Assembly: GCF_014696385.1 (NCBI RefSeq)
Contig: NZ_JACJQB010000002.1
Span: 186,001-250,000 of the forward strand
Source of the DNA: Pseudanabaena mucicola FACHB-723
GTDB lineage: Bacteria > Cyanobacteriota > Cyanobacteriia > Pseudanabaenales > Pseudanabaenaceae
Direction: 5' to 3'
Length of the DNA stretch: 64,000 nucleotides
Positions 57,238 through 59,814 of the stretch are shown piece after piece (position 1 is the stretch's first letter; every line of letters begins with the position of its first letter). A model generated the notes under the pieces. That model ran no database searches, had not been told where the DNA came from, and saw only the letters and a program-made list of their open reading frames with translations. The position numbers and the translations under genes are program-made.

Positions 57238-58476
57238 TTATAATACTTTGCCGATTAGAGTTTGTCCGATGTAGTGGCTATTTTTTGACTGCGATGTGAT
57301 CGCCAGATCATTAGCTAACCATGATAAATTCGGGTCAAAGATGGTGGTAACAGTTGGTGTTTCTAAGCCTAAAACCTTGGAAGAATTAAGACTAAGGGCT
57401 TGCCAAAGCTGTGATGCGGTCAACAAATCGCAGCTAACTAGTTTTTGCCAAAGGACAGAGAGGGCAAACTGCAAGCCAATTGCACCCGTGGGGGCAACTT
57501 CAAAGGGGACAACTTTTTCTTCGTAAGCACAGGGTGTGTGGTCGATCGCAATGCTATCGATTGCCCCTGTGCGAATACCTGCAATCAGCGCTAGTCGATC
57601 GGCTTCACTACCGAGGGGTGGCATCAACCGCAAATTGGGGTCATAGCTGTCTAAATTGCGATCGCAGTGGCAGAGATGCAGCCAAGTCGTACTCGCGCTA
57701 ATGGGCAATCCATCATTTTTAGCTTGGGCAATTAGTTCTACACCTTGCGCGGTGGAAATTCGCATTAAATGCGTTGGAGCTTTGGTGAGCCGCACAAGCT
57801 CAATGATTGCCGCAATCGCTGAGGTTTCCGCCGCCGCAGGATATCCCGTCATTCCGTATTGCAACGACCATTTCCCCTCTCTAATTACACCATTACCAGC
57901 CAGTTCACTATTTTGAGGAAATAGCGCAATTGGTTTCCCCAAAGGCTTGACATATTCCATAGCACGGCGCACTAATAACAAATTGGCGATCGGCTTGCCA
58001 TCCGTAAACCCGACCACAGTTTCTACTAACTCGCCCATATCAGTGAGCTGTTTACCCTCTAGCTCTTTGGTAATCGCCCCCCAAGGCTGGAGAATATTGC
58101 TATGTTTTTGTTGGACATTGCGCCAAAATTCCAGCGCTGCAATGTCATCGATCGCAGGTTGGGTATTTGGCAAAATCCCCACCTTTGAAAAACCACCTAT
58201 TTGGGCGGCTTGGACGAGTTCACTAATTGTTTCCCTAGACTCATGCCCCGGTTCGCCACTGGTACTGTAAAGATCAACTAAACCTGTACCGCAGATGATT
58301 CCTGAGCCTTCATAAATACTAGTTTGTTCAGGAATTTGGTTCTGGTCAATGCCAATATGAATTTTGCGATCGCGATCGACCAAGACATTGGCAATCGTCT
58401 CTGTGGTGGTAGTCGCGTCAAGAATGCGTACCTGATTGAAGAGCAGGGGGTACGTTAGGGGATTTTCTAAGGACAT
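57238..58476 (-). CDS. Dihydroorotase-like protein lacking metal ligands
   Basis: A 412-residue amidohydrolase-family protein with dihydroorotase architecture (GTGLVDLYSTSGEPGHESRETI near residue 63, GILPNTQPAIDD near 100, RLMPPLGSEADR near 282, IAIDHTPC near 312). The zinc-binding DxHxH is replaced: D68-L-Y70-S-T72 holds Tyr and Thr where histidines are needed. The later PHHL-type and HxxH-type histidines are also altered (TWLHL; HLMRIST). The nearly universal NTQP and PPL segments remain. It is therefore probably a non-catalytic paralogue of the PyrC'/PyrX type, which supports aspartate transcarbamoylase. No pyrB lies nearby, so the partner is unproven. Confidence 0.88.
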   Translation of the reverse strand: MSLENPLTYPLLFNQVRILDATTTTETIANVLVDRDRKIHIGIDQNQIPEQTSIYEGSGIICGTGLVDLYSTSGEPGHESRETISELVQAAQIGGFSKVGILPNTQPAIDDIAALEFWRNVQQKHSNILQPWGAITKELEGKQLTDMGELVETVVGFTDGKPIANLLLVRRAMEYVKPLGKPIALFPQNSELAGNGVIREGKWSLQYGMTGYPAAAETSAIAAIIELVRLTKAPTHLMRISTAQGVELIAQAKNDGLPISASTTWLHLCHCDRNLDSYDPNLRLMPPLGSEADRLALIAGIRTGAIDSIAIDHTPCAYEEKVVPFEVAPTGAIGLQFALSVLWQKLVSCDLLTASQLWQALSLNSSKVLGLETPTVTTIFDPNLSWLANDLAITSQSKNSHYIGQTLIGKVL

Positions 58477-58560: not shown

Positions 58561-59814
58561 TTAAAGTTGATCGATGTTGAAATTTTCAAGGGCAATTGCC
58601 AAATGTGTCCAATGGGTTCCGCCCTGTAAAAATACGGTGTAAGGTTCACGCAAGGGGCCATCGGCAGAAAGCTCTAGGGTACTGCCATCAATGAATGTGC
58701 CACCCGCCATCACCAACTGACTAACATAGCCTGGCATTTCCCCAGGCACAGGATCAACATAGGAATCAATCGGAGAAAAGCGTTGGAGATTACGACAAAA
58801 CTCAATTAATTTTTTCGGATCACCCAGTTGAATTGCTTGGATGATATCTTGGCGCGTCTCCAATGGTTCTGGCTTGACGGCATAGCCCAATTTACTAAAT
58901 ACATAGGCAGCGAGGTGACTACTTTTCATCGCCTCCCCCACCATCTGCGGCGCAAGAAATAATCCTTGAAACAGTAACCGATTGAGATCAAAAGTCGCTC
59001 CACCTTCTAGTCCAATACCTGGGGCAGTCAGTCGTTGGGCAGCGAGTTCTACATACTCCTTTTTCCCCGCCACATAGCCACCTGCGGTAGCAATTGTCCC
59101 TCCTGGATTTTTGATTAATGAGCCTGCCATGATGTCTGCACCGACAGCCGTTGGTTCGCGATCGCTAATAAATTCACCATAGCAATTATCAACAAAGCAA
59201 ACTGTGTTGGGATTTTGTTGCTTGACCAAATTGACAATGCGCTCAATTTCATGAATTGATAGGCTCTGTCGCCATGCATAGCCACAGGAGCGTTGAATTA
59301 ACACCATGCGAGTTTGTGGCTTTACGGCTTTGGCGAGAGCAGCCCAATCCACACCACCCTCTGGGGTGAGATCGACTTGGCGATAGGTAATCCCGAAGTC
59401 CTTGAGCGAACCTGCATAGTTAGCACCCTGACTATCGCTGGTGAGAGGATAGCCGATCACTTCTTCGAGGGTGTCGTAGGGTGCGCCCACCACTGACAGC
59501 AGCTCATCAAGGGGACGCAAAATGCCAAATAAACAACAGGCGATCGCATGGGTTCCTGAAACAAACTGCACCCGCACAGCAGCAGACTCTGCTCCCATCA
59601 CCTGTGCAAAGACCTGATCCAGAACATCCCGCCCCATGTCTCCATGCCCATAGCCTGACACACTCGCAAAATGATGCGCCCCCACTCGACCATCACGAAA
59701 GGCTTGTAAAACCCGTTCGAGATTGTTTTTGACATGGAGATCGATATTTGTAAATGTTGGCGCGAGAGCAGTCACGGCTTCGGAAACCAACGCCTTCATA
59801 GTGTCAGAGGTCAT
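58561..59814 (-). CDS. Methionine gamma-lyase family / aluminium-resistance-type PLP protein
   Basis: A 417-residue fold-type I PLP enzyme of the family often called aluminium resistance protein or methionine gamma-lyase family (YnbB-like). Motifs: SGYGHGDMGRDVLDQVFAQ near residue 53, FVSGTHAIACCLFG near 83 (cofactor phosphate site), VCFVDNCYGEF near residue 206, and the presumed PLP lysine in AGSLIKNPGGTIATAGGYVAG near residue 231. The true reaction is not established for most members. It lies upstream of the dihydroorotase-like gene on the same strand. Confidence 0.88.
   Translation of the reverse strand: MTSDTMKALVSEAVTALAPTFTNIDLHVKNNLERVLQAFRDGRVGAHHFASVSGYGHGDMGRDVLDQVFAQVMGAESAAVRVQFVSGTHAIACCLFGILRPLDELLSVVGAPYDTLEEVIGYPLTSDSQGANYAGSLKDFGITYRQVDLTPEGGVDWAALAKAVKPQTRMVLIQRSCGYAWRQSLSIHEIERIVNLVKQQNPNTVCFVDNCYGEFISDREPTAVGADIMAGSLIKNPGGTIATAGGYVAGKKEYVELAAQRLTAPGIGLEGGATFDLNRLLFQGLFLAPQMVGEAMKSSHLAAYVFSKLGYAVKPEPLETRQDIIQAIQLGDPKKLIEFCRNLQRFSPIDSYVDPVPGEMPGYVSQLVMAGGTFIDGSTLELSADGPLREPYTVFLQGGTHWTHLAIALENFNIDQL

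Follow-up and report, generated by a model that had tools for sequence, protein, structure and literature searches.

Results

A dihydroorotase-like gene carries an altered metal site

The gene under study lies on the minus strand at positions 57238-58476 of the window, by which we mean the whole 64,000-nucleotide stretch of DNA analysed, itself part of a contig (C12) of a genome of approximately 4.0 Mb. It is an open reading frame with an ATG start that encodes 412 residues. The product is a member of the NCBIfam family NF005614 (PRK07369, "dihydroorotase"), scoring 516.5 bits at a cut-off of 456, and barely exceeds the cut-off of the general model TIGR00857 (280.6 vs. 279.05); none of the Pfam models matched it. 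Dihydroorotases of solved structure (PDB) found with phmmer cover nearly its full length, with E values of about 1e-50 (best 4e-50). The features are as follows:

57238..58476, minus strand: putative pseudo-dihydroorotase (pDHO; PRK07369 family), 412 residues, from the open reading frame, NF005614 and PDB phmmer matches
58261..58275, minus strand: D68-L-Y70-S-T72, former DxHxH alpha-zinc motif, from alignment with the protein of locus L060
57919..57921, minus strand: F186, former beta-site His (equivalent to Aquifex H180), from alignment with the same protein
57760..57762, minus strand: R239, former beta-site His (equivalent to Aquifex H232), from alignment
57514..57543, minus strand: D312-H313-T-P-C316-A-Y318-E-E-K321, with the Asp305 and His306 equivalents kept, His309 lost and Y-E-E-K conserved

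Among 18 named loci matching the protein, 17 do so at 72-78% identity, and these loci are mostly titled Pseudanabaena. The gene's surroundings are not conserved at 20 loci of the genus, where three of its four neighbour proteins were found at 0/20 loci and the WecG-like neighbour at one (32%). The adjoining gene (58561-59814, minus strand) encodes a 417-residue PLP-type protein that methionine gamma-lyase models match weakly, scoring 50 bits where the cut-off is 666. As the initial annotation had stated, no pyrB is adjacent; it lies on another contig (C45). An AlphaFold2 model of the protein, computed with 17 locus proteins, reached a mean pLDDT of 52.9 and left the pocket unreadable; Foldseek with this poor model ranked 3d6n_A first, at a TM below 0.5.

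The active site was compared by alignment with the intact class I dihydroorotase of locus L060. Both histidines of the zinc-binding pair are replaced (H61 by Y70, H63 by T72), as are those of the beta-site (H179, the equivalent of Aquifex H180, by F186; H232 by R239) and three residues that we take to serve the substrate, namely Arg65 (G74), the Asn of the NPP motif (M285) and H309 (C316). D68, D159, D312, H313, N104 and E217 are kept. Hence, of the residues that mark an active class I dihydroorotase, the HxH pair and the substrate Arg, Asn and His309 are missing, while the equivalents of Asp153 (D159, beside a one-residue deletion in TDDG) and Asp305 (D312) are present. The alignment bears out the initial annotation, which had read the motif as D68-L-Y70-S-T72 and the other ligand histidines as changed too, though two acidic ligands persist. 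The beta-site histidines of the Aquifex dihydroorotase are dispensable and the metal-free enzyme is inactive (PMC3880350), and for this reason the loss of His61 and His63 weighs most.

The altered pocket is a family trait

NF005614 scored above cut-off in 128 of 386 genomes of the phylum, and 107 cyanobacterial homologues were aligned with the window protein to give a family of 108 sequences. The His61 column is Tyr in 104/108 members, the His232 column Arg in 104/108, and D305 is kept in 103/108; the His63 column is variable, with His in 63/108 and Thr in 23/108. Within the 87 members from outside Pseudanabaena, conservation is 0.98 at Y70, 0.97 at R239 and 1.00 at S262, Y175 and H236, Gly occupies the substrate Arg column in 80%, and the Asn of NPP is missing. 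The absence of the zinc site is a trait of the cyanobacterial family, not a peculiarity of the window genome, and the change reads as conserved re-tooling rather than decay. Three family members (L050, L059, L108), two of them Pseudanabaena relatives, have His at the Y70 position. Apparent N-terminal extensions in L096, L115 and L133 look like an upstream open frame rather than fusions.

Conservation of 97-100% at these pocket columns would also suit a regulatory or sensor protein, in which the re-tooled pocket (Y70, R239, S262, Y175, H236) binds a metabolite and association with PyrB is secondary or absent. However, pocket columns 285 (0.43) and 186 (0.59) are poorly conserved among the same 87 members and the conserved residues may be packing, and we regard this explanation as unlikely.

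Nearly all carriers encode another dihydroorotase

The initial annotation had proposed looking for a second, intact dihydroorotase, and one is encoded in the window genome (L005, PRK07575 type, C45:125315-126604), on the same contig as pyrB and about 76 kb from it. It has DPQVH in place of DxHxH and keeps the K, H, H and D ligands, so the window protein is not the genome's sole dihydroorotase candidate. The first zinc His of this presumably active PRK07575 enzyme is Gln in all five copies viewed (L005, L151-L154), with the other ligands kept. Across the 386 genomes, NF005751 (PRK07575) scored above cut-off in 105 and TIGR00856 (E. coli-type PyrC) in 81. One or the other is encoded in 126 of the 128 NF005614 carriers, which divide into 102 with PRK07575 only, 22 with TIGR00856 only, two with both and two with neither. 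Stop codons interrupt the PRK07575 copies of G185, G197 and G251; an E. coli-type PyrC accompanies the interrupted copy in G197 and G251 but not in G185. pDHO scored above cut-off in all 24 genomes made up of the 22 with E. coli-type PyrC only and the two that combine it with a stop-containing PRK07575 copy.

The two carriers with neither, G131 and G245, in which a further search found no PRK07575, TIGR00856 or other dihydroorotase candidate, are the main facts against catalytic inactivity of pDHO, and the G245 assembly comprises two contigs at 99% completeness. Together with the retained D159 and D312 and the second His of HxH, still present in 63 of the 108 aligned proteins, they would fit a protein that is still a dihydroorotase, working with a modified metal site or a different metal. 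Set against this are the near-invariant Tyr in the alpha-site His61 column, the Gly that mostly fills the substrate Arg column, the missing NPP Asn and the other dihydroorotase of 126/128 carriers; we therefore consider a retained activity improbable.

Lower still do we place the possibility that the partner of pDHO is the active PRK07575 dihydroorotase, or that PyrB, pDHO and the dihydroorotase form one assembly, rather than PyrB being the partner alone. It draws on proximity, the two genes lying at most 2.2 kb apart in 12/104 genomes from seven families, and on a partial rate correlation between DHO and pDHO of 0.27 (0.07 to 0.46) across 27 genomes. But the 22 carriers with E. coli-type PyrC only still keep pDHO, and at each of the three loci read, pDHO and the PRK07575 gene are separated by a signal-peptidase-like gene on the opposite strand. 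A phosphoglycerate mutase-like gene precedes pDHO in two of these three loci; both labels are our own reading.

Descent and degraded relatives

Group labels were inferred: f20 denotes small-genome relatives (g32 the smallest); f31, f38 and f40, non-photosynthetic lineages of the same phylum; and core, the rest of the class. Thirty further homologue loci were found: the eight from the non-photosynthetic lineages retain every ligand, the 19 from f20 genomes are more degraded, and the remaining three belong to another dihydroorotase type. The NF005614 search gave no match in 15 g32 genomes and one g42 genome. Eight non-photosynthetic genomes were tested for both genes. In five of them, which belong to another class (G190, G263, G339, G252, G009), pyrB and the intact homologue are neighbours, 13-44 bp apart; this adjacency is absent in the other three (G236, G077, G325).

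In a 64-row tree, the photosynthetic family and the f20 forms make up one clade (100/100), with alphaproteobacterial PyrC' and a Rufibacter protein nearest to it (93/92, not starred) and the intact same-phylum enzymes joining next (90/84). A 29-row tree recovered the same PyrC'/PyrX neighbourhood (90/77), and a topology test on that set did not reject a tree uniting the family and the intact same-phylum enzymes (p-AU 0.246). The missing catalytic residues, and a homologue that is more decayed or absent in small-genome relatives, might suggest a decaying pseudogene, but full-length open frames and many columns invariant across the phylum led us to reject this for the main family as highly improbable.

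PyrB of the carriers and its 240s-loop motif

The PyrB of the window genome is 45-50% identical to the pDHO- or DHO-linked PyrBs of Sinorhizobium, Azospirillum and Nonomuraea and 37% to Bacillus PyrB, and its best PDB scores are to class C-like chains, ahead of Aquifex. PyrI was found in 0/80 genomes (7/14 control genomes were positive). The pDHO gene was never close to pyrB in 44 genomes, 20 of which have both on one contig; the smallest gap was 18.6 kb.

For comparison of PyrB sequences, 61 of the 70 same-class PyrBs found were used together with that of the window genome, and the screen took in the 110 columns that are conserved across 42 core genomes and also in four or more of five class A-type PyrBs. 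Exactly three of these columns, P251, R254 and E255, are lost in all 18 f20 PyrBs counted, and they fall within five residues of one another (shuffle P 0.0008). The 18 come from 13 genomes with a degraded pDHO homologue and five with none; two f20 PyrBs left out of the count (G366, G217) likewise have no motif, making 20/20 viewed. Core PyrBs keep P251 in 42/42, R254 in 40/42 and E255 in 41/42 genomes, and the whole pattern, PSxREY, which was chosen post hoc and rests on one clade, is kept in 40/42 core genomes with pDHO (exceptions G177 and G374). Since it is also kept in 9/9 core genomes that combine pDHO with E. coli-type PyrC, the motif follows pDHO and not the type of dihydroorotase.

PSxREY corresponds to PSEY of E. 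coli PyrB (residues 237-240), that is, to the 240s loop, which we take to face the other trimer. E. coli PyrB is misregistered at the motif in the alignment and for that reason was not counted as without E-Y. Aquifex ATCase, which binds DHO, reads PS..SY, with P-S and Y present and R-E absent, and the operon-encoded PyrBs of the non-photosynthetic lineages lack the full motif.

Rate covariation in the 27 genomes gave a partial correlation of 0.23 between PyrB and pDHO (bootstrap -0.04 to 0.50), which is not significant; that between ArgF and pDHO was higher, at 0.50. Singling out PyrB as the special partner of pDHO on this ground is thus unsupported. Relative to ArgF, PyrB evolves faster in genomes with a degraded or missing pDHO, a weak trend from one clade: the PyrB to ArgF ratio stands at 0.71 (21 core genomes), 0.95 (nine genomes) and 1.05 (five), and at 1.07 and 0.99 in two further kinds represented by one genome each.

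Discussion

The cyanobacterial protein has lost its zinc and substrate residues, is retained across the phylum and, in nearly all carriers, is accompanied by another dihydroorotase. Because the zinc site is lost and yet the gene is widely kept, pDHO is probably a structural partner of aspartate transcarbamoylase. We think it likely that the window gene encodes a non-catalytic subunit of dihydroorotase fold belonging to a class-A2-like ATCase and unlinked from pyrB, with another enzyme serving as the dihydroorotase. Under this explanation, pDHO would assemble with the separately encoded PyrB, as PyrC' or PyrX does in class A2 ATCases, and would help to keep PyrB in an active oligomer, while dihydroorotase activity would come from a different enzyme, of PRK07575 type here and E. 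coli-type PyrC in others. Catalytic inactivity, partnership with PyrB and a dodecamer-like assembly are what we infer. The initial annotation had taken the protein to be probably dead as an enzyme yet retained in the manner of PyrC', a reading that fits the second dihydroorotase, the phylum-wide conservation, the best tree and the tracking of the PyrB motif.

The closest parallels are the PyrC'/PyrX proteins of Pseudomonas and Sinorhizobium, which are likewise dihydroorotase homologues without the zinc and substrate residues in genomes with a separate dihydroorotase; the PyrB of the window genome may also be of similar type (45% identical to that of S. meliloti). P. aeruginosa PyrB is described as monomeric and inactive until joined by pDHO in a dodecamer (PMC7053772), and disruption of S. 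meliloti smc01361, beside pyrB, as causing pyrimidine auxotrophy, its product being a proposed inactive PyrX (PMC5929573). The S. meliloti locus of our analysis is presumably smc01361, given its place beside pyrB. By annotation, the Sinorhizobium homologue is directly beside pyrB and that of Ruegeria one gene away; a PyrB frame was found in the stretch around the Azospirillum and Methylobacterium homologues, and no annotated pyrB stands beside the Rufibacter plasmid gene. In contrast, the cyanobacterial pDHO gene is not beside pyrB, although adjacency, usual in class A2, does not strictly define it. The replacements of the HxH pair also differ, with Y70 here (and R239 at the beta-site) as opposed to Arg/Gly followed by Phe/Leu/Lys in four alphaproteobacterial proteins.

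By sequence, the class A1 DHO-ATC of Aquifex aeolicus (PDB 3d6n, 4bjh) ranks with the nearest proteins of solved structure, and it was the best Foldseek match of our poor model, but its DHO is an active zinc enzyme, unlike the window protein. The pseudo-DHO domain of fungal CAD-like ura2 is described as an inactive dihydroorotase domain tied to ATCase (PMC7053772); it differs from pDHO in being fused and eukaryotic. No description of a cyanobacterial pDHO was recognised in the open-licence PubMed Central text searched, passages of PMC6737895 and PMC4581275 included.

A fuller version of the class-A2-like holoenzyme, with an unlinked pDHO across the phylum, can be put forward tentatively, although it is doubtful as a whole: the rebuilt pocket (Y70/R239/S262) might sense a metabolite, and the small-genome relatives might have taken the assembly apart, with pDHO and the PSxREY stretch of the PyrB 240s loop decaying or disappearing jointly.

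Cumulatively, pDHO has an ordinary fold and is unusual in its scale, being a pseudoenzyme spread across a phylum that, judging from sequence comparisons, most likely serves PyrB. The window protein is a member of NF005614, but its residues do not bear out the activity for which that family is named, and "dihydroorotase" is probably a misnomer for the family across cyanobacteria. If this explanation is true, pathway models that rely on the PRK07369 name would select the wrong gene, oxygenic phototrophs would rely on a pseudoenzyme partner for the first committed step of their pyrimidine synthesis, and the small-genome relatives would represent a natural experiment on the loss of such a partnership.
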